This document shows positions 39,764-53,581 of a DNA stretch of 64,000 nt, piece after piece. The position numbers and the translations under genes were made by a program. The DNA is from Symbiodinium sp. CCMP2592 (lineage: Eukaryota; Sar; Dinophyceae; Suessiales; Symbiodiniaceae), in NCBI GenBank assembly GCA_905221615.1, contig CAJNDT010001001.1:1046359-1110358 (forward strand), read 5' to 3'. The notes beneath the pieces are model-generated. The model saw only the letters and a list, made by a program, of their open reading frames with translations, was not told the DNA's origin and ran no database searches. Within the stretch, counting starts at the first letter, position 1; the number at the start of each line of letters is the position of its first letter.

Positions 39764-40001
39764 AGGAGGAGCACTCTTTGTAGCAATGGCTCAAGTTTTC
39801 GGCTCAGACTTTGCAGTGCCGACGTGGCCTTTTAGCCTGGAGTCCCTACTTTTGCTAAAGGCCCTGACTGGAACCCAAACCGCAACCTTAAAGGTCGTAG
39901 GCTGGCTGTCCAGCAAGGGTTGGGGCGGGGTAGCGCCATACTGCACGTGCTTTCAAGCCGAATACTTGCTCAGCCGTTGTCACAGGTTGAGCTTGCTCGC
40001 C

Positions 40002-41141
40002 ATGACTTGGGGAAAAAACGGTGCCAAGGGTGCAGCAACGCCCTACATCGTCTGTCCTCACTGCTCTAGGGCGGGTAAGCAGAGCTGGATTTTCGTAGAC
40101 AGAGTCCAGCACCATCCCTTTTGCAACCTGTGTGGCAACGCATGGAAGACCAAGGGTGCTCCGGTCACTCAAAGACTGCGCCCGCGGGGTCCTAAGAAGA
40201 ACAGGGACAGAAGCGCAACCACTGAGAGTGCCACCCAAAGCCCCCAACGGCCTAGGAATCAAGAGGGCAACCTCTCCAAAGCCGTCACGACACTTTGGCA
40301 GAAGTTTCCCCCAGAGGTCCAGAAGGAACTGAGCGAGGCAGGTTTCCAAGCAGGCCGGCAGCCGAGTCCGCCTCCAGGCCTCCAGTCTGGAAAAGGCAAT
40401 GGGGCAAAGGGTGGGCTTGACGAGCAGGCCGAAGCCTCTAAGAACCTGTGGGATTCTGCGTCTGATGATCAGAAGAAGCTGATGCGCCAAGCTGGCATCC
40501 CTGAGCCGGTTGCGTCGGAGCCAACAGATCTTGCGGCCCTTTGCAAGAAGCACTTGGAGTCAATGCCGCCTTCGATCCAGCAAGCCCTTGCAGCACTTGA
40601 TCCTCCGGCCCCCACGCAGACTCAGCAGATTGAGATTGCAACTCGTCGCTTTAAGCAGAGCACTACGGACTTGCGACTGATGATCCAGCAAACTGCTGCC
40701 TTACAGATTCGCATAGACCGCGCCAAAGCAACCTACCAGGAGCTGCTTGAGAAGATGAAGGTTTGCCAATCTGATTTGCAGAGCAAACAAGCTGAAGTCA
40801 CGGCTATGCAGTCGGAGTTGGAAGCCACACTCCGTGCTGATGCTTCGGGTCTGGAGGACCCCGCGCGCAAGGACGATCCCTTGGAAGGGCTTCTAGATAC
40901 GCTTGCCAAAGTTGGAATTGTCCTGACCCAGGAGCAGAAGGAGCTTTACGAGGAGGCCCAGCGCGGCAAGCTAAATGATGGGCAGCAGAATATGGAAGTT
41001 GAAGCCACAAACCAGCCTGGTTTGACGGCTCCGACCCGTGCCCCGCTGAGCCAAACTCTGCCAGAACACAAGGGCACTGAGCCGAATGAGCAAGCCAAGC
41101 CCAGGTCCAGGAGCCGAGGCCGTAGCACGCAGCAAGGTTAG
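40002..41141 (+). CDS. LINE ORF1 protein (zinc ribbon, coiled coil)
   Basis: The preferred start is ATG 40002 in a good context (GCCATGA), giving MTWGKNGAKGAATPYIV. The frame is open upstream to 39618, and ATG 39786 is the alternative. A zinc ribbon (VCPHCSRAGKQ followed by FCNLCGNAWKTKG) occupies residues about 17-55. A basic Pro-rich linker follows. Repeated short helices of the type WQKFPPEVQKELSEAGF and WDSASDDQKKLMRQAGIP follow. A long coiled coil runs at about 215-290 (ATRRFKQSTTDLRLMIQQ, TYQELLEKMKVCQSDLQ). An Arg/Ser tail (RSRSRGRSTQQG) ends at TAG. Probably the nucleic-acid-binding RNP protein of the element. The TAG is followed in the same frame by ORF2. Confidence 0.75.
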   Translation: MTWGKNGAKGAATPYIVCPHCSRAGKQSWIFVDRVQHHPFCNLCGNAWKTKGAPVTQRLRPRGPKKNRDRSATTESATQSPQRPRNQEGNLSKAVTTLWQKFPPEVQKELSEAGFQAGRQPSPPPGLQSGKGNGAKGGLDEQAEASKNLWDSASDDQKKLMRQAGIPEPVASEPTDLAALCKKHLESMPPSIQQALAALDPPAPTQTQQIEIATRRFKQSTTDLRLMIQQTAALQIRIDRAKATYQELLEKMKVCQSDLQSKQAEVTAMQSELEATLRADASGLEDPARKDDPLEGLLDTLAKVGIVLTQEQKELYEEAQRGKLNDGQQNMEVEATNQPGLTAPTRAPLSQTLPEHKGTEPNEQAKPRSRSRGRSTQQG

Positions 41142-41144
41142 GGA

Positions 41145-44100
41145 GTGGGGCTGGGGGTCCAGGTTAGGTCTGTTTTCGAGGAAGGTCCTTTAAGTGGGGA
41201 GAGTGGGCAACCTGCTTGTGCATTTCAGCCTGCCCTTCAGCTTGATCAAGACGTTTCCTGTGCCCCTGCGTCCAGCTCTCAGCCATGCGGGTTTTCCGGC
41301 GAATCGGTTAAGCGACCCATTTCTTTGTACAGTGATTTGTTTTCATTGGGGGAGTGCCCACCTCAGCAGCCCAAGTCCTTAGAGAAGGTTTCAGGGTATG
41401 TTGAGGCTTACTCACAATTTTGCAACAAAGACCTTGTATGGGGTCAGTTTTGGTTACCAGGTTTTTCTGGTCAGGAAGAATGGGATTCTTGTGGGGATCT
41501 GAGTGCCTGGCAGACTGTTACCAAAGGATTGCGCCACAGCACCCCGCTGCAGTCCCAGGACACCCAACTCATCACAGGGCCCCAGTTCTGGCCCCCATCT
41601 TTCTCGACAACTGAGTTTGATGAGGTCCCTGTGACCGGTGCCTCTCCAATCTCTGCTTTTGTGGCCACAACCTCAGCAACGGCATCTCAAGTTGAGGAGT
41701 TTCCTCGCTTACAGGCGTCGGGGAGCCATGCCGAGGTTGGGGTCACCCGCAAACGTAATAAAACCAGACGCAGAGCGAAAAAGCCCAAACACATTAGGGT
41801 ACCCTTCTCTCAGCTTGCCCCTTGTGAAATGCCACCTGAGGTGCCACCTTTGGCAAGCCCACACAGCCAGTGGCGAATACTCGAAGGCCAGGTGTGGGAG
41901 GCTGTCCAGAACCCAGATCTGTTGGGAGCAACTTCAGAGGTGGTTGGCCACCTTCTTGATCAGGTTGAGCAGGGCAGCTTAGGTTGGTGGCTGTGCCAGG
42001 AGATCTTGGCCCTCCAACGTTCTTTTGACTTGACTTTGCTCTTGCTTGTTGCTCGGGGCTTTGAAGTTTTGTGCAAATCGCAGCCACAGGGGCACAGGCA
42101 AATGCGAGTCACATCTTGCAACATTACTTCTTGGAGACCAGAAGTCAAGCAATGGTTTTCAGCTCAAGGGGATGTTATCTTGATTCAGGAGCACCATCTT
42201 TTGGAGTCCCAAGTTGTTGCTGAAATCTCGTCTATGGCTGCCATGGGCTTCGACTCCTTCCTTTTGCCCGCAGCCCCTGGGGAAGGCCGACGGAATAGCT
42301 CTAGAGGCGGAGTTGGGGTTTTAGTTAGAGCCCACCTGGGAGCCCGTTTGCGAGGTCAGTATACCAACCAAGGTTGTGGCTACGTGGCGGTGACGCTACG
42401 CACACAAGGGGCTGACTTGACAGTAGTTAGCCTGTACCTCCAGTCTTCCTCCGGCTTCGGGTCCCCGGTCAACTCTGACATCCTTGCATCTCTGCGCGCA
42501 ATTCGTCAATCTGTGAGGGGCCCAATCCTGATAGGTGGAGACTGGAACTCGCCTTTGAAGGATTTGTTGGACACTGCCATTTTTCAAAGTTTGTCCCTGG
42601 AACCAATTGGGCCCAACCAAGCCACCTGTGGTGACAATGAGCTTGATTTTCTGGCTGTATCACACTGCCTGGAAGGTTTGCTCCGGGTTGATGCCTCCTG
42701 GGATGTTCCTTTCAAGCCACATGCAGCAATCCAAGTTGCCCTCAATGTGGGCGCTTTCCAGCTCACCACTCCACAGCTTCCCTCCTTTGTGCTTTCCTTC
42801 AGGGAAGAACCGCTTGATTACATACAGGTTGAGGAGACCCTCGCCTCTTTGCCGGATACCACCTTTTCGGCTGACCCCCTGAGCAATCGACTGGCTTCCA
42901 TTTCCAGTTCGGTTGAGCACAGTCTTTTGCAATCGTCCCAGGGTATTGGTCGCCAACTCCAAGTTGAATTCCTCCCAGCTGTTCCTCGCATGTCCCAGTT
43001 CGCATGGGAAGGTTCTTGCCAGGCTTTTTGGCACCGGGTACAATTTCTGTGCCAGGGAGACCACCCCAAACGTCGAGAGCAATGCCAGGAGTATTTGCCG
43101 CAGATCCTGGACCACTGGCAGGGCAACTCGGAGGAGGCTGTTTCTTTTCTTTCTACGCTCCAGGCCTGTCTCTCGGAGCAGGCTGCTGTTCCCGAGCCCG
43201 TCCAGCAATTATTGCAGGAGCAATTTCTGCTGGCCTCTAAAGTTCACCAGGATGCCCAGACCAAGTCGTACAGGTCGTGGTTGCAGGGAGCCCAAGAAAA
43301 AGGGATGGCCCCCCTTTTCAAGACGATCAAAAAAGGTGAAATCACCACTGCACGTCCCTTTCGGGATCTGTCCGCAGAGGTCCGCGCCCTGGCTAGAACC
43401 AAACTATGGCTCCGCACTTGGAAAGGCGTACTTAGAGTTGAGGACCTTCCTCCTCTCCCACACGCAGAGCAACAGGCTCGCGGAAAGCTACGGGAACTGG
43501 CTGCTCAGCAGGTCGCTACCCTGAGCCCCATTTCCCCGGAACAGCTGCAACAAAGGTTTTCCAAAGGCAGGGTCACTGCCCCAGGACCGGACGGCTGGAG
43601 CAAGTCCCTTCTCAAGAAATTGACTTGGCCAATGCTTCAGGACATCGCTGAATTTTATCAGGAGCTCGAAAGAGGCCTCCGAGTCCCGCAGCAGTTTCTC
43701 CTGACACAAGTTTGTATGCTGCCCAAATCGGCTACTGCTGAGAGACCTATCTCTTTAACTCACGTTTTGTGGAGGGACTACTGCAGAGCCAGGTGGTCCC
43801 TGATCCAAGAGTGGACGGTCTCCTACCAGGCCCTGGCTCCTTGGGATGCCGCGGTGCCAGGTCGAACATCTTTAGACATCGGCATCCGCCGGTTGCTGTG
43901 GGCCGAAGCCTCCCGAACTCAGTCCAAACACTTTGTAGGACTCTTTCTTGATATCAAAGGTTTCTATGATTGTGTAGTTTGGGCCTCGGTAGTCGACACC
44001 GGACTCCTGTTGCAGTTCCCACCTTTGCTTTTGGAGCTTTCCCTTCAAATTTATGGTGGGACACGATTTGTCTCAGCCGAAAATTCGGTTTCGCCGGGAA

Positions 44101-47100
44101 GCATTCCCACAGTTGGGTTGCTTCAGGGTTGCCCTGTTGCGCCGGTGGTTTCGAAACTGGCTTTGTTTGTCCCAATCAGGGACCTTCAGGCTACTGGCCT
44201 CACTCACAACATCGACCAGTGGCTGGATGACATTTCGGCTGACGTGGTAGGGTCCACTGCTTCTAACACGGCTCACAAAGCCCTCAAGACATTTCGTATA
44301 CTGCGAGACTCTCTTGCGGAACGAAATCTTCAGGTTTCCTTGGAAAAAACCAAGTTTCTTTGCTCAGACTCTGCCACCTCTCAAGTTCTTGCGCGTCTGC
44401 GTTCGGACCAAGATCCTGGCATTACTCTGTTAGCCAAAGACTTAGGGGTTGACAGCAATGCTGGCAGACGCCGCAGGCTTGCCACCTCTCTGGGCAGGCA
44501 CAAGAAGGCGCAAGGCCGCCACAAGCGCCTTCGTGCTTTAGGTGTTGATTCGCAATGTTCACGCACGAGGGTTGTGCGCGGATCCATCATGACGTGTGCC
44601 ACCTATGGCCATCAGGCACAGGGTGTTAGTCCCAAACGGTTGAAATGGCACCGCGCTGTGCTGGCTGGTAGCTTAGGACGCCAACATCTAGGAGGAACCC
44701 TGACCGTCTTGGAGATGTTCTCCCACAGATTTCCGGATCCCCGAGAGCAGATCATTTGTGAGCATTTGCAAGTTTTTCTTCGTATTCTTGGCCGTTCTCC
44801 TTCCATCTGGGAGGAAGTTCAAAGGTCCTGGCCCTTGGTCAAATCCAGGTTGGAGGCTTCGCCTCACCCTTGGAAAATCGTTGCCGGACCCATTTCGGCC
44901 ATGATTCAGTATGCCAGGGATATGGGATGGGATGTCCAGTCCCCGGAAGTCTGGCATATTGATGGCCACCCCTGGCCCGTTGACTTCAGCCCCTTTCTTT
45001 TTCAGGAGCTGCGGCGCAAGATTCGGTCTACCATCAAGAGCGAAAGGTTGCGAGCCATCTCTGGCCAACATGGCGGCCAAGGAGCTCAGGAGGGTGTAGA
45101 TTTCACAATTCATCGCCGCATTGCTTTAAAGAAGACCAAACGTCTGACCTTCTACAGGTCAATCTGGCAAGGTGCAGTTGTGCATGCGGGAAGTGGTGGC
45201 CACCCCAAGTGCCCTTACTGCAAGGATCGGGGCCTTGATTCAGAAAACACACTACAACATGTGCTGTGGGACTGCCCCAGATGGGCCAGACAGCCAAAGC
45301 TTCCCAGGCATCTTGAACAAATGCGTCAGTCCCATCCTGCGCCCTGCCTTTGGTTGCGAGCCCTTCCCCCTCTTGCCTATGTCTCCTCGCCACTTCAGAA
45401 CGCTGAGGATAGGTATGCGGGCACCTGGCCGTCACAGCCCTGGGACTCGGATCTTGTCATTGGTACTGATGCCAGTGGCGGAAAATTTTCTTCCGACCCC
45501 AGATTGCGGACCATTGGATGGGCTGTGATTCTAGCACGCAAAACGGGCCAAAGCATCACAGTTATTGCAACTGCGAGCGGGGTTTTGCCTCGGCCGGCCA
45601 CGGTTCTAGATGGGGAGGTCCATGCCATTGTTAAGGCCCATGAGCTTTGCCCAGGCCTGACGGATCTTACTACGGATTCTCGGGTAGCTTGCAAGCAGGC
45701 TGCAGCTAAGGCGGTTACATCCAAGCATTCCATGTTTTGGAAACCCCAATGGCAGAACATATCCCCACAACATCTTCATTGGGTCAAGGCCCACTTGGAT
45801 GTAGGAAAATTTGCTGAAAAGTTTGGAAAAGATGAGGTTTGGCGTTGGCATTTGAATCAGGAAGCTGACCAACTTGCTGGGTCCAGGGCTGACCAAGCTT
45901 TGCACCCTGATGCCAAAAAGCAAGTCAGGCAAGTTGACACGCTGGTTTCCACCCTTTCCCAGCTACTTAGCCAGAGGGCGGAGATTTTGATTACTACGCA
46001 GGACAAGAAGACTATTTTCTGCAAGCGCCAGCCAAAACCTCCAACCCTCAACAAAAGGCAACAGATTGAGCAACTCGTCAGCCAAACCGTCTCTCCGCTG
46101 GGACACCAGTGGGAAATTCGGAGTCAGCACCCTACGAACCTCACAGCCATGTGTGGGAAATGTGGCCTTTACCTGCAGCAAGTGGACCCTCCTTCACTGT
46201 TCCAGCAGGTCCTTGCCCAGCCGTGCTTGGGAAGGGAAGGTCGTCCCCCGGAGCACCTGGCCTGTCACTCTTCCCATCAGCTTGTTTCCATAGGCAAAGC
46301 TTGGCAGTGTAAAGTGTGTGAAGGCATTTTGCCAGCGCGGGCAAAGAAAGTCCCGGGGCTCCTCCAGTCCCTGTGTGTGACCCGTAAACACACTAACAAA
46401 CTGACTAAGTTCACCAAGAGTTTGTTAAGTGGTGTAGGGGTTCCGGAGTCACTACCTGCCTCCAAGAAGGCTAGCAAGCTTTCTAAGGAGACTCTCCCAA
46501 AAGCCCAAAACCTTAGCAACTTCTTTGCAACACCACTTAACAGGGTTGAGGCCACTCCCCTGCAACCTCTCACTCCCGATGACCCTCCCTTGCAGAACAT
46601 GGTCAGGATTGAGCCTCCCTCTCCTGCTGTCCGCGATCACCGGGATCCTGGTAGCCCAGAGCTTGGAGACTTAAGGGCTGCTGGCTCCATTGTTCGCAAG
46701 GTGAAGTTCCAAAATCCATCCAACCATTGTTACACCAATTCTCTGGTGGTTGGTTTCTTTTGGGTTGACCTGCTCCTTGATGCCTCCAGCCCCTTTGCTG
46801 GATCCCCCATCCAGGGCATCCTGCGATGGTTGAAAGATCAGCGCAAAGTCGAGCTGTGGCAGTCCCTGGTTTGGAAGAGATTAGTTGCAGGCCAGGGTCG
46901 ATGGGAATCCCCAAACAGCCAGCATGATGTTTGTCAACTTCTCATGCACCTTTCTTCGGGGCTTCCCCGTGACCTCTCTTGCGTTTCATGGCGAGCTCAT
47001 GCTCCCAATGCACCTCACCACGAGGGTAACTTTTTCCCACTTCCTCTTCACCTCCCGGAGCACGAAGTCTCTATGAGGGAACTTCTGGCAAATTGGCAAC

Positions 47101-47438
47101 AAGGTGGAGAAGTGAAAATCCTTACTCACCCGCCTTTGATTGCATTGCAGCTTTTGAGGTTTGTTAGGGAAGGGGGGGGTTTTCGGAGGCTCGAGAACCC
47201 AGTTGGTTTTGAGGATCCTTGTGTGCTTGAGGGATTGGATGGGGAACTTCTTCGTTACTACCCCAAGGCCGTGGTCTCGCATTTAGGCAACTCCCCGACC
47301 TCTGGACATTATCGTACATTACTTCTCCCCTCCAAGCTCATTACTGATGATGGGGTAGGTGCTGTTTGCGCCAAGCCTGCAGATGTAGCCTGGTCTAAGT
47401 GCTACTCGTACCTGGTTTTGCTAACCCTCCATGTCTGA
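41145..47438 (+). CDS. LINE ORF2 polyprotein: endonuclease, RT, RNase H, USP-like protease
   Basis: 2097 codons counted from GTG 41145; no ATG occurs until about 41828. Residues 1-315 are a linker with a basic patch (RKRNKTRRRAKKPKH). APE-type endonuclease spans about 320-545: SCNITSW, IQEHHL, SRGGVGVLV, GGDWN (D466), LDFLAVS; the terminal SDH is PHA here. RT spans about 780-1110: TAPGPDGW, RPISL, FLDIKGFYD (D936), LLQGCPVAP, WLDD (D1028, D1029), LEKTKF. A CPYC..HVLWDC knuckle starts at 1356. RNase H spans about 1438-1580: TDASG (D1442), DGEVHAI, TTDSR, NQEADQLAG. CxxC ribbons lie at about 1665-1745. The C-terminus, about 1840-2097, is a C19/USP-like fold: NHCYTNS (C1862), QHDVCQLL, LIALQLLRF, SGHYR (H2055), ITDDG. 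All catalytic residues are kept. Confidence 0.85.
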   Translation: MGLGVQVRSVFEEGPLSGESGQPACAFQPALQLDQDVSCAPASSSQPCGFSGESVKRPISLYSDLFSLGECPPQQPKSLEKVSGYVEAYSQFCNKDLVWGQFWLPGFSGQEEWDSCGDLSAWQTVTKGLRHSTPLQSQDTQLITGPQFWPPSFSTTEFDEVPVTGASPISAFVATTSATASQVEEFPRLQASGSHAEVGVTRKRNKTRRRAKKPKHIRVPFSQLAPCEMPPEVPPLASPHSQWRILEGQVWEAVQNPDLLGATSEVVGHLLDQVEQGSLGWWLCQEILALQRSFDLTLLLLVARGFEVLCKSQPQGHRQMRVTSCNITSWRPEVKQWFSAQGDVILIQEHHLLESQVVAEISSMAAMGFDSFLLPAAPGEGRRNSSRGGVGVLVRAHLGARLRGQYTNQGCGYVAVTLRTQGADLTVVSLYLQSSSGFGSPVNSDILASLRAIRQSVRGPILIGGDWNSPLKDLLDTAIFQSLSLEPIGPNQATCGDNELDFLAVSHCLEGLLRVDASWDVPFKPHAAIQVALNVGAFQLTTPQLPSFVLSFREEPLDYIQVEETLASLPDTTFSADPLSNRLASISSSVEHSLLQSSQGIGRQLQVEFLPAVPRMSQFAWEGSCQAFWHRVQFLCQGDHPKRREQCQEYLPQILDHWQGNSEEAVSFLSTLQACLSEQAAVPEPVQQLLQEQFLLASKVHQDAQTKSYRSWLQGAQEKGMAPLFKTIKKGEITTARPFRDLSAEVRALARTKLWLRTWKGVLRVEDLPPLPHAEQQARGKLRELAAQQVATLSPISPEQLQQRFSKGRVTAPGPDGWSKSLLKKLTWPMLQDIAEFYQELERGLRVPQQFLLTQVCMLPKSATAERPISLTHVLWRDYCRARWSLIQEWTVSYQALAPWDAAVPGRTSLDIGIRRLLWAEASRTQSKHFVGLFLDIKGFYDCVVWASVVDTGLLLQFPPLLLELSLQIYGGTRFVSAENSVSPGSIPTVGLLQGCPVAPVVSKLALFVPIRDLQATGLTHNIDQWLDDISADVVGSTASNTAHKALKTFRILRDSLAERNLQVSLEKTKFLCSDSATSQVLARLRSDQDPGITLLAKDLGVDSNAGRRRRLATSLGRHKKAQGRHKRLRALGVDSQCSRTRVVRGSIMTCATYGHQAQGVSPKRLKWHRAVLAGSLGRQHLGGTLTVLEMFSHRFPDPREQIICEHLQVFLRILGRSPSIWEEVQRSWPLVKSRLEASPHPWKIVAGPISAMIQYARDMGWDVQSPEVWHIDGHPWPVDFSPFLFQELRRKIRSTIKSERLRAISGQHGGQGAQEGVDFTIHRRIALKKTKRLTFYRSIWQGAVVHAGSGGHPKCPYCKDRGLDSENTLQHVLWDCPRWARQPKLPRHLEQMRQSHPAPCLWLRALPPLAYVSSPLQNAEDRYAGTWPSQPWDSDLVIGTDASGGKFSSDPRLRTIGWAVILARKTGQSITVIATASGVLPRPATVLDGEVHAIVKAHELCPGLTDLTTDSRVACKQAAAKAVTSKHSMFWKPQWQNISPQHLHWVKAHLDVGKFAEKFGKDEVWRWHLNQEADQLAGSRADQALHPDAKKQVRQVDTLVSTLSQLLSQRAEILITTQDKKTIFCKRQPKPPTLNKRQQIEQLVSQTVSPLGHQWEIRSQHPTNLTAMCGKCGLYLQQVDPPSLFQQVLAQPCLGREGRPPEHLACHSSHQLVSIGKAWQCKVCEGILPARAKKVPGLLQSLCVTRKHTNKLTKFTKSLLSGVGVPESLPASKKASKLSKETLPKAQNLSNFFATPLNRVEATPLQPLTPDDPPLQNMVRIEPPSPAVRDHRDPGSPELGDLRAAGSIVRKVKFQNPSNHCYTNSLVVGFFWVDLLLDASSPFAGSPIQGILRWLKDQRKVELWQSLVWKRLVAGQGRWESPNSQHDVCQLLMHLSSGLPRDLSCVSWRAHAPNAPHHEGNFFPLPLHLPEHEVSMRELLANWQQGGEVKILTHPPLIALQLLRFVREGGGFRRLENPVGFEDPCVLEGLDGELLRYYPKAVVSHLGNSPTSGHYRTLLLPSKLITDDGVGAVCAKPADVAWSKCYSYLVLLTLHV
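46680..47435 (+). other. USP/C19-like cysteine protease domain inside LINE ORF2
   Basis: Motifs in the order of ubiquitin-specific proteases: a Cys box (PSNHCYTNSLVVGFF, compare NxGNTCYxNSxLQ), QHDVCQLLMHL (compare QQDAxEFL), PPLIALQLLRF (compare LPxxLxxxLKRF), VVSHLGNSPTSGHYRTLL (His box), then LITDDGVGAV and KCYSYLVLLTL (compare WxxFDDxxVxxV..AYxLFY). C1862, H2055 and D2068/D2069 would form the triad. At about 230 residues it is at the short end for USPs. Fold assignment is by motif only. Activity could be against ubiquitin, a ubiquitin-like protein, or the element's own polyprotein. Confidence 0.75.
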
Positions 47439-47464
47439 GCCTTCTCGCAGCTTTTGGCTCCAAG

Positions 47465-49384
47465 ATGGGTAAAGGAAAAGGGAAGAACAAGCCAGGGAAG
47501 GGGCAGAATGCCCCTTTCGAGGACCCGGTAACGGAACAGCGGTACCAGGCCCTCTTGCAGCACCGTTTTAGTGAGGGCAAACCTGCTATTTCGAGATCAA
47601 GGTACTCCAGGCAAAGTCAGCATTCAGGTACCGACCGGGAACCTCCGGCTTCTGGTCCCAACTTGTCAAGGTCGGTTGCGGCCCCTATCACGAGGCCAAA
47701 AGCCGCACCCAAGCCGGGGGTAGCCCGAACCCCACCACCACCACCGCCAAAGCGGCAACGCACAGAGGCCCAGGCTGAGGAGGCCTCGCCAAGAGCCTCC
47801 GGTTCCAATCTGCAGGCTGAGGTGCCCTCGCCTTCCAATGCTGATGAACCAGGCCTAGCCTCCACAACTCAGGTTGAGCAGGTCTCACCTGCACCAACCT
47901 CTCCTTTGGGGCCTGAGCAGGATGAGGTGCTGACCTCTCCTAAACAGGAACCTGCCCAGAGTTCTCAGACTGAGGTTCCTTCACCGGCAACCAAGCCGGA
48001 TACAAATGCTGGTGATCCAGGCCCGGCCGCCACAACCCAGGTTGAGAAAGTCTCGCCTGAACCGGCCTCTCCCTCGGAGCATGAGCAGGAAGAGGTACTG
48101 ACCTCTCCTAAGCAGGAGCCTGCCCAGAGCTCCCAGGTTGAGGTTACCTCACCGGCACCCAAGCCGGATACAGAAGGCAAGGCTTCCAAAACACAGGTTG
48201 AGAAGATCTCACCTGAGCCAGCCTCTTCTTTGGTCCCTGAGCAGGTTCAGGAACCCTCACCTCATCCAGATCCTGTCCCCAGTGACCAGGTTGAGGCAAA
48301 CTCACCGGCCACCACCAAGTTTTCGGAGGAGGCTCCATCCCCAGCGGAGTCCCTTCCAGGCCCAGATCCGGGAATCAAGGGCGAGGACCTCAGAGGGGAG
48401 CCAGGTTCGGAGGTTCCCTTGGAGCTTCTCTACAAGCAGCCCCTGAAGATCCCGAGATCCCTCCGAGGCGTGTCCCTTAACAAAAAGGGCTCGTCTGGCA
48501 CGCCTTGGACTTTTTACACTCCCGCGGAGCTGGAGGACGAGCATGGAGGGGTATGGGCCGTTTTGGGGGTAGGTGGCAGTCGTGTCACCTTGGAGCCCCC
48601 GGCTCAATGGGGACTTGGAGCCGATTTTCAGGTCCTCAAACTGGGGCTCGTTGAGGACATGGGCCAGGAGCAGATTTTTCTGGAGGGACTATCCAGAGAT
48701 TTCACCTTTATCCCTCGACCGGGGACTTCTGGTGATGTTCTGCTCACCTTGTCAGAGAATGGCCATGGCAAGGGCTTTACCCTACGTGGCCGCGCGGTTT
48801 TCTACAGGCGGGTCATCCCTGTGGCTTCTCCGCAGGGAAGGCTTAGGACACTTGATGTCCCGGACCTCCTGGCTTTGTTAAGTGTGGTCGCGTTTTTGAG
48901 TGCCTGCCATATCCGTTTGTCGGATCTTGGGGAGCACAATGTAGGTTGGGCCCTCCCGACCTTGGCGCGCACACGCGCCGAGAACATGGCGCTTCAAAGT
49001 GCAAAGCTGCGCTCGGCCGACTACGTGCAGGTTTGTTTGTACGACGGGGGCCGCTGGAGAGAAGCGCAGCACAAGCACTGGCCTGGAAAGGCGGCAACCA
49101 AGGGGCTTCTTAGCCTATGCGCCAAACATGAAATGTTTGGTCCATGGGTGGAAGAACAAATCCACCTTTATGGCTCCCCCGAGGTTTTGTGCAAGGTCTT
49201 CCTCCACCGCCTCCAGGACTTTCCGCACCACTTTGAGGGCTTAAAGGACTCGGGGTTCTTAACCTACCTCCCCTTGTGCTACAAGGTTGGTATGGTTATT
49301 CCCCTGAGCAACCCTTGGAGCAATCCGGATGATACAACCTGGCAGCTCGTTCCGATCCCTAGTTTGGACACCCCGACCAGTTGA
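47465..49384 (+). CDS. LINE-associated ORF3 (639 aa, function unknown)
   Basis: The ATG at 47465 is 26 nt after the ORF2 stop. The frame is already open at 47399, so it overlaps ORF2 by 40 nt in another frame. It starts MGKGKGKNKPGKGQNAP. Residues about 100-330 are Pro/Glu/Ser repeats. One 56-residue unit (LTSPKQEPAQSSQ, then KPDT, TQVEKVSPEPAS) occurs at 47930 and 48098 with degenerate neighbours. Residues about 345-639 look globular: GVWAVLGVGGSRVTLE, RDFTFIPRPGTSGDVLLTL, HIRLSDLGEHNVGWALP, YVQVCLYDGGRWREAQ. No enzyme motif recognised. Its position between ORF2 and the structured 3' end argues that it belongs to the element. Confidence 0.65.
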   Translation: MGKGKGKNKPGKGQNAPFEDPVTEQRYQALLQHRFSEGKPAISRSRYSRQSQHSGTDREPPASGPNLSRSVAAPITRPKAAPKPGVARTPPPPPPKRQRTEAQAEEASPRASGSNLQAEVPSPSNADEPGLASTTQVEQVSPAPTSPLGPEQDEVLTSPKQEPAQSSQTEVPSPATKPDTNAGDPGPAATTQVEKVSPEPASPSEHEQEEVLTSPKQEPAQSSQVEVTSPAPKPDTEGKASKTQVEKISPEPASSLVPEQVQEPSPHPDPVPSDQVEANSPATTKFSEEAPSPAESLPGPDPGIKGEDLRGEPGSEVPLELLYKQPLKIPRSLRGVSLNKKGSSGTPWTFYTPAELEDEHGGVWAVLGVGGSRVTLEPPAQWGLGADFQVLKLGLVEDMGQEQIFLEGLSRDFTFIPRPGTSGDVLLTLSENGHGKGFTLRGRAVFYRRVIPVASPQGRLRTLDVPDLLALLSVVAFLSACHIRLSDLGEHNVGWALPTLARTRAENMALQSAKLRSADYVQVCLYDGGRWREAQHKHWPGKAATKGLLSLCAKHEMFGPWVEEQIHLYGSPEVLCKVFLHRLQDFPHHFEGLKDSGFLTYLPLCYKVGMVIPLSNPWSNPDDTTWQLVPIPSLDTPTS

Positions 49385-49405
49385 GAAACCCCTGAAGGGT
49401 TTTAA

Positions 49406-49844
49406 GGTGAGGTGACTCCCTTAAGCTTGCAAGCCGCTTCAGGGTGAGGAGACTCCCCTTTCCAACCTTAATTCAACGAGCCAATTTGGTCACAAGCCTA
49501 AGTCTGCTCAAGGTGAGGCTACTCCCTTGCTCTACAAGTCAACAACGTGAGGAGACTCCGTGGACTTGGAGAAGCTACAAGGTTGAGACACCTCCCTTGC
49601 ACACCCCCTTTTGTTGCCGCCTAGCTCAAAGTGAGGAGACTCCTTGGAAGGTAGGCTGAGGGCAACCGCAGTAGGCAGGTGAGCTCGACCAGTCTGTGCC
49701 GAAGGTGCTGTTTAAGGACATCACCTGATGTCAGACTGGTCTAGAGAAACTCGCCGCTCCCAAAGTGGACTAGGCTCCGAAATCAGGGTGAGGTGACTCC
49801 CCTAAAGCTCCGTCTCACCCTGACTCGAACTGGGCTCAGCCCAG
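49406..49844 (+). repeat. LINE 3' region with seven stem motifs and larger hairpins
   Basis: The motif GTGAGG(A/T)GACTCC occurs with few changes at 49406, 49442, 49511, 49546, 49581, 49630 and 49786. Most copies hold a GGAG/CTCC mini-stem. Perfect larger stems: GACCAGTCTG (49687) with CAGACTGGTC (49732), enclosing GACATCA/TGATGTC; TCAGGGTGAG (49783) with CTCACCCTGA (49814); and CTGGGCTCAGCCCAG (49830). Noncoding. Confidence 0.7.
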
Positions 49845-49892
49845 CGGACCGACCGCTCGAGCGTGACTCTTTGTAGCAAGTCGAGCTGCAAC

Positions 49893-50132: not shown

Positions 50133-51075
50133 TGCATTTTGACAACAGTTCCAGCACAACTGGATGCATTTCGTCTGTCATTTCGGTTTGCTTGCAATGC
50201 ATTTCGGATCAAAAACGGACGTCCAAACTTTCATTTCAAATGCATTTCCAGCTCACAGAATGCAGATGCTGGATGCATTCAACATGTGCCAGACAGCATC
50301 TCAAAGTGCATTTTGACAACAGTTCCAGCACAACTGGATGCATTTCGTCTGTTATTTCGGTTTGCTTGCAATGCATTTCGGATCCAAAACGGACGTCCAA
50401 ACCTTCATTTCAAATGCATTACCAGCTCACAAAATGCAGATGCTCGATGCATTCAACATGTGCCAGACAGCATCTCAAAGTGCATTTTGACAACAGTTCC
50501 AGCACAACTGGATGCATTTCGTCTGTCATTTCGATTTGCTTGCAATGCATCTTGGATCCAAAACGGACGTCCAAACTTTCATTTCAAATGCATTTCCAGC
50601 TCACAGAATGCAGATGCTGGATGCATTCAACATGTGCCAGACAGCATCTCAAAGTGCATTTTCACAACAGTTCCAGCACAGCTGGATGCATTTCGTCTGT
50701 CATTTCGGTTTGCTTGCAATGCATTTCGGGTCCAAAACGGACGTCCAAACTTTCATTTCAAATGCATTTCCAGCTCACAGAATGCAGATGCTGGATGCAT
50801 TCAACATGTGCCAGACAGCATCTCAAAGTGCATATTGACAACAGTTCCAGCACAACTGGATGCATTTGGTCTGTCATTTCGGTTTGCTTGCAATGCATCT
50901 CGGATCCAAAACGGACGTCCAATCCTTCATTTCAAATGCATTACCAGGTCACAGAATGTAGATGCAGGATGCATTCAACATGTGCCAGACAGCATCTCGA
51001 AGTGCACTTTGACAACAGTTCCAGCACAACTGGATGCATTTCGTCTGTCATTTCGGTTTGCTTGCAATACATTTG
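50133..51075 (+). repeat. 174-bp satellite array
   Basis: The word TGCATTTTGACAACAGTTCC (or a one-base variant) starts at 50133, 50307, 50481, 50655, 50829 and 51003, an exact 174-bp period: five full units and a partial one. Units differ by only a few bases. TGCATTT and ATGCATT words recur inside the unit. Because 174 is 58 codons, several frames stay open through the whole array. I do not regard these as genes. Confidence 0.95.
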
Positions 51076-51372
51076 CAGTCCAGAAAAGCGTGCACCAATT
51101 TGATTTCAATGCAACATCGGCCCGCCAGAAATGCATTTCGAGGAAGTGTTCAATGCATTTACATTCTCGCTGAACCTGTCTCAAATGTGCACATCGTTGT
51201 CGGCAGACCTGCATTTGCATCATTCCAGAAGGACTGGCTGATTGCCAAACCCTCTTAAAAGCACGTGTTCTGCTTCAATTCTGGTTTCAATTCTGAAACC
51301 AATGCATTTTGCAGTCAGCTTCTTTGCATGAAAGCTCAGCTACCAATGGCTCCGATACCAATTTGCATGCAA

Positions 51373-52070: not shown

Positions 52071-52269
52071 TATCTGAAGAGATCGTTCATTGATGTGCCT
52101 CTGGACAGAGAAGAGCTGGGGCTTTTCACAGGTTCTCTTTGATGACAACTGCATTTGCCTTGCATTTGCTCTCAAGTGGAAGATTGAGCAGAAACAAGAG
52201 TTCACCGTTTCAAATGCATGGTGGCTTGAAATGTATCAACAATTCCTTGCATTTGCAATGTTTCGAATT

Positions 52270-53475
52270 GGCCCATAATGCAAGAATGTCTGTGGGAAAA
52301 TGCATTGGAACAAGAGTTTTTGCATGGGTGGAGCGGAATCTTTGCATGGAAGCATGCATTTGGGATGTTTCAAAATTCGCCTGTAATGCAAGAATGTCTG
52401 TGGGAAAATGCATTGGATCAAGAGTTTTTGCATGGGTGGAGCGAAATCTTTGCATGGAAGCTTGCATTTCGAATGTCTCCAAATTGGCCCACAATGCAAG
52501 AATGTCTGTGTTAAAATGCATTTGTTGCATGGGTGGGACTAAATCTTTGCATGGAAGCTTGCATTTGGGATGTTTCAAAATTCGCCTGTAATGCAAGAAT
52601 GTCTGTGGGAAAATGCATTGGAACAAGAGCTTTTGCATGGGTGGAGCGAAATCTTTGCATGGAAGCTTGCATTTCGAATGTCTCCAAATTGGCCCACAAT
52701 GCAAGAATGTCTGTTAAAAAATGCATTGGTTGCATGGGTGGGACTAAATCTTTGCATGGAAGCTTGCATTTGGGATGTTTCAAAATTCGCCCGTAATGCA
52801 AGAATGTCTGTGTAAAAATGCATTGGAACAAGAGTTTTTGTATGGGTGGAGCAAAACCTTTGCATGGAAGCTTGCATTTCGAATGTCTCCAAATTGGCCC
52901 ACAATGCAAGAATGTTTGTGTTAAAATGCATTGGTTGCATGGGTGGGTCTAAATCTTTGCATGGAAGCTTGCATTTGGGATGTTTCAAAATTCGCCCGTA
53001 ATGCAAGAATGTCTGTGGGAAAATGCATTGGAACAAAAGTTTTTGCATGGGTGGAGCGAAATCTTTGCATGGAAGCTTGCATTTGGGATGTTTCGGAATT
53101 CGCCCGTAATGCAAGAATGTCTGTGTAAAAATGCATTGGAACAAGAGTTTTTGTATGGTGGAGCAAAACATTTGCATGGAAGCTTGCATTTCGAATGTCT
53201 CCAAATTGGCCCACAATGCAAGAATGTCTGTGTTAAAATGCATTGGTTGCATGGGTGGGACTAAATCTTTGCATGGAAGCTTGCATTTGGGATGTTTCAA
53301 AATTCGCCTGTAGTCCAGAATTCGTGGGAACTGCCGCCTTGGAACAATAGTTTGTTTGTTTTGGGTGGCGGCAAACTCTTGCATGGAAGCTTGCCATTTC
53401 GAATGTCCTCCAAATTGGCCCACAATGCAAGAATGTCTGTGTTGAAATGCATTGGTTGCATGGGTGAGTCTTAAT
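52270..53475 (+). repeat. Alternating 108/97-bp higher-order satellite
   Basis: ATGCAAGAATGTCTGTG starts at 52278, 52386, 52494, 52591, 52699, 52796, 52904, 53001, 53109, 53216 and 53425. Spacings alternate 108 and 97 in the centre. The long subtype carries TTGGAACAAGAGTTTTTGCA, the short one TTGGTTGCATGGGTGGGACT, so the real unit is a 205-bp dimer. The right end (53300-53475) is degenerate. Confidence 0.95.
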
Positions 53476-53581
53476 TTCTTTGCATGGGCACAGTCATGAA
53501 AATGGCAATTTCCCTTTTTCAAACAAAGTCCATATTGGTTGCTGTGTTGTGTGAGCAGGACAATTGTTTGCATTGCCCGAA

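Follow-up and report, generated by a model that had tools for sequence, protein, structure and literature searches.

What would a deubiquitinase be doing at the end of a retrotransposon polyprotein? The question is raised by a 64,000-nucleotide stretch of the genome of Symbiodinium sp. CCMP2592 (contig CAJNDT010001001.1; hereafter the window), in which a long interspersed nuclear element (LINE) carries, at the C-terminus of its second open reading frame (ORF2) and in uninterrupted frame with an endonuclease and a reverse transcriptase (RT), a domain of the ubiquitin-specific protease (USP/C19) type. The answer that we favor as probable is that this is an intact LINE whose ORF2 protein (ORF2p) uses its C-terminal USP in cis to keep the host's ubiquitin-dependent turnover or damage signalling from stopping retrotransposition. 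At the level of sequence comparison and structure prediction, our results show homology to USPs, a USP fold, a complete catalytic triad, purifying selection and recurrence in several LINE families.

Identity of the domain

A preliminary description of this locus had recognized USP boxes with Cys, His and Asp in the ORF2 frame, and all of them were confirmed at their places (Table 1). The Cys box, the QHD box, the His box and the triad Asp follow each other in this order in every one of the 33 LINE-type domains that we aligned; the residue preceding the catalytic Asp, the first D of ITDDG, varies (D in 27, E in 4, N in 2). Cys1862 and His2055, on whose retention in related copies the preliminary description had staked its claim, are kept in these 33 domains and in all 18 copies of the window family examined (17 by pattern, L060 by eye).

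From the single sequence alone, the assignment as a USP would be fair rather than proven: in Pfam, the window protein scores 0.04 for UCH as a whole ORF2 and 6.5e-4 as a 272-residue piece, below the cut-off, and a search of the window USP against PDB sequences returned USP7 entries only, at E values of 0.4-0.8. A 21-row profile, in turn, matched USP7 at 8.9e-20, which provides the significant match to C19/UCH that had been anticipated, and relatives of the domain pass the UCH cut-off (e.g. L020, E 6.7e-12). The papain-like core that had likewise been expected is seen in the predicted structure, which is that of a USP core and whose structural matches include entries for USP46/USP12, USP1, CYLD, USP18-ISG15 and USP36-Fubi.

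The spacing between Cys and His is compact, with a median of 206 residues over the 33 rows, and none of these rows has two CxxC motifs between the QHD and LxRF boxes (31 have none, two have one). The finger CxxC is also absent in one of the four cellular USPs compared, and zinc-binding fingers are indeed common but not universal in USPs, CYLD being a member that lacks them. The domain is, hence, a compact C-terminal USP without the usual zinc-binding finger cysteines, and we infer that it is an active enzyme that removes ubiquitin or a ubiquitin-like protein.

Copies and relatives of the fusion

In the 1.1 Gb genome of Symbiodinium sp. CCMP2592, a first look gave 1826 candidates for the domain, and 142 matches among them were scored. 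Of these 142, 64 are stop-free over the full 272 residues, with identities of 79-100%, and in 25 copies, that of the window among them, the frame measures exactly 2098 codons from stop to stop. Another 28 matches are diverged (26-37% identity); 20 of these, some of which are near-copies, were fetched for inspection of their upstream regions, and 18 have an RT on the same strand (a 68-residue piece only in L012), with no upstream RT match in L017 and L021. Pfam places RVT_1 and UCH, both above cut-off, within one frame in L010, L015, L016, L020, L023 and L027, while in L011 RVT_1 is above cut-off and the USP came to light solely in BLASTP against the window domain. Independent searches found RT and USP in frames of identical length, less than 5 kb apart and on one strand, at C320, C1447, C316, C2890, C3724, C5309, C5156 and C5061, and coordinates agree in the same way at C371, C91, C4512, C415 and C4966. 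Many genomic RT matches have no listed USP, the USP lists holding the best candidates only. When the Pfam RVT_1 list for the genome (best 150 candidates) was compared by eye with the USP lists, few places were common to both (C5201 was noticed), and RT-query searches of the genome were used in its place.

The fusion of RT and USP is therefore not confined to the window, because it is present in these genomic copies and in public ENA proteins as well. Among the latter, P0001 (from a cluster of 172 sequences) and P0002 (from one of 490) have USPs 67-68% and 58% identical to that of the window, and P0003 and P0004 combine UCH, RVT_1 and Exo_endo_phos within one protein. The USP of P0009 is nearly that of P0001; since no full-length match above 67% identity to P0009 was found in this genome (136 scored), the family to which these two belong stems from another assembly. 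One shorter relative is annotated as Symbiodinium sp. CCMP2592. In P0011, a predicted protein of 492 aa from EukProt, a LINE-type USP is joined to a La domain (PF05383), which may possibly be a host gene born from a LINE USP or a gene-model fusion with one.

Selection on the domain

Codon comparisons of the window with other copies by the NG86 method indicate that the USP is constrained by purifying selection, albeit less than the RT. For the USP, the ratio of nonsynonymous to synonymous rates (dN/dS) is 0.19-0.31 in comparison with eight full-frame copies, and 0.10 and 0.15 in comparison with two diverged ones, for which the USP dS is 0.53 and 0.84; the corresponding RT values are 0.04-0.11 and 0.05. 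For the two diverged comparisons, Fisher tests returned p values of 7e-28 and 2e-28. One diverged copy, C4932, has an RT stretch with one stop. This dN/dS range of 0.10-0.31, together with the full triad in 33 of 33 rows, speaks against a passively carried domain. Protein identities to P0001 and P0002 are 67-68% and 58% for the USP, 66% and 66% for aa 1480-1640 (mostly RNase H-like), and lower, 40% and 33%, for the linker at aa 1771-1845.

Possible role in retrotransposition

If the enzyme is active, it would remove ubiquitin or a ubiquitin-like protein and, being one polypeptide with the rest of ORF2p, would do so in cis. Its targets would be the ribonucleoprotein formed by the element's ORF2p and ORF1p, or proteins at the nick or insertion site, and retrotransposition could then proceed despite ubiquitin-dependent turnover or damage signalling by the host. 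Among the possible targets, we infer that protection of the element's own complex ranks first and action on target-site or repair proteins second, with self-processing a distant third.

Several observations weigh against this proposal. Evolution is faster in the USP than in the RT (dN/dS of 0.26 and 0.068, respectively, when nine full-frame copies are pooled); the window-family USP is under the Pfam UCH cut-off, as is that of P0001, and P0002 has no UCH match at E 0.1; and the alignment rows were gathered by similarity, which favors conserved motifs, with some of them near-copies of one another. The presence of USP18-ISG15 and USP36-Fubi among the structural matches is a further point: enzymes with this fold accept ISG15 or Fubi besides ubiquitin, so that the modifier may be ubiquitin or a ubiquitin-like protein.

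The strongest alternative, although we consider it unlikely, is that the main targets of the USP are host proteins of chromatin or DNA repair at the target site, such as a ubiquitinated histone or clamp, so that the enzyme aids integration instead of shielding the element's proteins. The covalent link to endonuclease and RT would place the enzyme there, and USP46/USP12 and USP1, which belong to a group that acts on chromatin and repair substrates, are among the solved structures nearest in fold. However, the structural ranks are nearly tied over many USPs, so that the fold matches do not identify a substrate. A role in repair for ubiquitin proteases of transposons has been proposed in a passage of PMC2836005.

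That the USP is instead a protease that processes the polyprotein by cutting ORF2p, as the preliminary description had also suggested, is improbable. The domain does lie in a long polyprotein behind the fast-evolving linker (33-40% identity, versus 58-68% for the USP), but nothing else in our results favors self-processing; USPs cut after a ubiquitin-like tail, and Pfam at E up to 1 found no ubiquitin-like domain in ORF2, which led us to demote this explanation to a weak rival. Slightly less probable still is an inactive ubiquitin-binding remnant that is passively carried: the weak Pfam score of the window family and the faster evolution of the USP would fit it, but the intact triad throughout the alignment and the dN/dS values argue against it. 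Lastly, chance resemblance or an assembly artefact, for which nothing speaks except the weak single-sequence score, is refuted by the stop-free, full-length genomic copies, the RT-USP proteins in ENA records, the fold match and the profile match to USP7, and can practically be dismissed.

Likely exchange of the module between LINE lineages

In our tree, the 33 LINE-type USPs fall on one side of a branch (99/98), with eight USPs of another gene type and four cellular-looking USPs on the other. The latter are the only cellular-looking USPs included and come from this genome, so a closer host donor is possible; an RT is unconfirmed in nine of the 33 LINE rows (P0005, where Pfam finds zinc fingers only, L017, L021, L066, L072, L074, L076, L079 and L080). 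L019 (same family as L020) and L073, L075 and L083 (like L067, L074 and L071) were left out, and the near-copies L009/L011 and L020/L024 were kept.

Over 18 rows that have both domains, the RTs form two far groups, namely the window with P0001 and P0002, and the 15 others. Mean identity between the groups is 19% for the RT and 27% for the USP, compared with 36% and 33% among the 15; the median tree distances are 8.4 (RT) and 3.5 (USP) between the groups, and 2.7 and 3.0 among the 15. RT distance thus exceeds USP distance 2.4-fold between the groups, and within them the ratio is 0.85 and 0.54; at 19% identity, such distances are rough. This pattern is as expected if two LINE lineages with RTs that had already diverged had exchanged the USP, and such an exchange of the module is likely. 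The tree also suggests that the window-family USP is nested in the other LINE USPs, which would mean a one-way transfer, but we did not retain this scenario as the AU (approximately unbiased) test does not reject a placement of the window family outside (p 0.273). More tentatively, and with somewhat more doubt than confidence, we propose that at least two deeply separate RT clades of dinoflagellate LINEs pass one LINE-specific deubiquitinase lineage between them as a module, which would imply a strong and general ubiquitin-based restriction of retrotransposition that is countered enzymatically in cis.

Comparison with known systems

LINEs with an accessory protease are known, whereas the USP/C19 class and the position at the C-terminus of ORF2 appear not to have been described: among the papers listed by full-text searches of open-licence PMC, judged largely by title and opening of the abstract, none was found on a USP-bearing LINE, although reports in Repbase or subscription journals could exist, and the word ubiquitin does not occur in the main texts of PMC6338049 and PMC11453091. 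The SymbioLINE-Dnmt elements of Symbiodinium, as portrayed in part of PMC5890265, are likewise dinoflagellate LINEs with an acquired host-type regulatory enzyme under purifying selection, in their case a DNA methyltransferase in ORF1 rather than a deubiquitinase at the end of ORF2. Utopia/NeSL LINEs also encode a cysteine protease of the ubiquitin/SUMO-protease kind (sections of PMC4640811), which is however Ulp1-type and N-terminal, with a restriction-like endonuclease in Utopia, while the LINE in the window combines a C-terminal USP/C19 with an apurinic-type endonuclease. Ginger1, Mutator and Helitron elements with OTU or Ulp1 are further mobile elements that encode ubiquitin-system proteases, and a Trichomonas protein joining transposase_11 to peptidase C19 shares the C19 domain; all of these, as presented in a portion of PMC2836005, are DNA transposons, unlike the retrotransposon studied here. 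Cellular USP7, USP46, USP12 and USP30 have the same catalytic boxes and fold, and differ from the compact window USP, which lacks the paired finger CxxC and is fused to a LINE. Giant viruses also have USP-fold proteins in their genomes, which in BFVD are annotated as viral ubiquitin hydrolases and are 11-18% identical over the first ten matches listed (three unnamed).

These results single out ubiquitin as a point at which LINE mobility may be controlled in dinoflagellates, and they make the LINE-borne USP a directly testable candidate enzyme. The recurrence of the module and its likely exchange between LINE lineages parallel viral deubiquitinases and the methyltransferases of dinoflagellate LINEs, and some gene models for ubiquitin hydrolases in dinoflagellate genomes may be pieces of retrotransposons.

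Organization of the element

Table 1. Features of the LINE and its insertion site, in window positions.
Feature	Position	Strand	Basis
5' target-site duplication CTCTTTGTAGCAA	39774..39786	.	13-mer identical at 49867-49879
Complete LINE element, 10,080 bp	39787..49866	+	alignment with other genomic copies; duplication
DinoSL relic TGGCTCAAG, last 9 nt of DinoSL	39787..39795	+	matched to published DinoSL
ORF1, 379 aa from first Met inside element	40002..41141	+	CxxC...CxxC by eye; ends TAG
ORF2 polyprotein, 2097 codons open	41145..47438	+	uninterrupted frame
Apurinic-type endonuclease domain	42096..42824	+	PF03372 (Exo_endo_phos) E 5.7e-5, 23.4 bits (cut-off 24.5)
Reverse transcriptase	43722..44375	+	PF00078 (RVT_1) E 1.6e-9
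RNase H-like domain, D-E-D-H-D motif only	45450..45914	+	residue positions
Zinc-ribbon-like CxxC...CxxC	46152..46319	+	sequence
USP/C19 deubiquitinase-type domain	46680..47435	+	Pfam, profile, predicted fold
Catalytic Cys1862	46728..46730	+	33/33 in alignment
Catalytic His2055	47307..47309	+	33/33 in alignment
Catalytic Asp2069, second D of ITDDG	47349..47351	+	33/33 in alignment
ORF3, 639 aa	47465..49384	+	ATG preceded by TTTTGGCTCCAAG
3' target-site duplication, same 13-mer CTCTTTGTAGCAA	49867..49879	.	

The LINE in the window is an intact, multi-copy element. Both of its ends were set by copies elsewhere (10 of the 12 fetched flanks match, L033 and L034 do not), and the perfect 13-bp duplication on both sides makes it a complete insertion. 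This duplication, the dispersal of copies over many contigs and the apurinic-type endonuclease upstream of the RT identify a LINE of the APE-type non-LTR (long terminal repeat) retrotransposons, and a megablast comparison of the window with itself (E up to 1e-20) showed no long repeat at the ends of the element. The endonuclease of the relative P0002 is above the Exo_endo_phos cut-off (E 1.1e-6). The ORF2 RT matches LINE-1 ORF2p among PDB sequences at E 0.0066 and has the catalytic DD (WLDD, first D at aa 1028). No Pfam profile for RNase H matched ORF2, and a PDB search with aa 1453-1652 was empty; similarly, there is no OTU or Ulp1 domain in ORF2, for which Pfam at E up to 1 gives RVT_1, Exo_endo_phos and UCH only.

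ORF1, which has no Pfam match above cut-off, is in the same frame as ORF2 with a single TAG between them (41139-41144), and readthrough or reinitiation is possible. The start codon of ORF3, for which Pfam gave nothing at E values up to 0.1, lies 26 bases past the ORF2 stop codon, and the TTTTGGCTCCAAG right before it (47452-47467) resembles the dinoflagellate spliced leader over the 3' half of the latter, which would fit an origin of ORF3 as a separate retroposed mRNA or a trans-splice site of its own. The leader itself is given as DCCGUAGCCAUUUUGGCUCAAG in an excerpt of PMC6050394. At the element start, TGGCTCAAG is followed by a possible older relic, TTTTCGGCTCAGA, and copy L035 has a longer remnant, CAGTAGCCATT, ahead of TGGCTCAAG; given these relics, the element probably moves as trans-spliced RNA.

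Some copies form head-to-tail arrays with a period near 10.07 kb, and the decamer TTTTCAATCC stands between units in all three junctions read (L039, L042, L043). It is found at such junctions and also in the 5' flank of other copies (L037, L039, L041, L042, L043 and others), and the copies at C546 and C690 have 1 kb of 5' flank in common, which hints at sequence-preferring insertion.

Other observations concern relatives elsewhere in the genome and the surroundings of the element. On C4929, C5129, C415 and others, RT frames reach 4000-5100 codons, unusually long for LINEs, and the 4078-codon frame of C415 also has a USP match. An additional expanded gene type, in which an N-terminal USP has CxxC motifs, is represented by L029 (1935-3713), L030, L031, L068-L070, L077 and L082, with frames of 584-1837 aa and UCH E values of 4.2e-19 (L029) and 6.5e-23 (L031); in L029 the gene recurs after 2.96 kb, and L029-L031 each have a smaller upstream ORF of 264-277 aa. 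In the tree, the eight USPs of this gene type make up a group separate from those of the LINEs, and the gene type may represent a further class of USP carriers that are mobile or amplified. Just downstream of the LINE, positions 50133-51113 and 52246-53487 of the window are internally repeated, with 79-97% identity between shifted copies.

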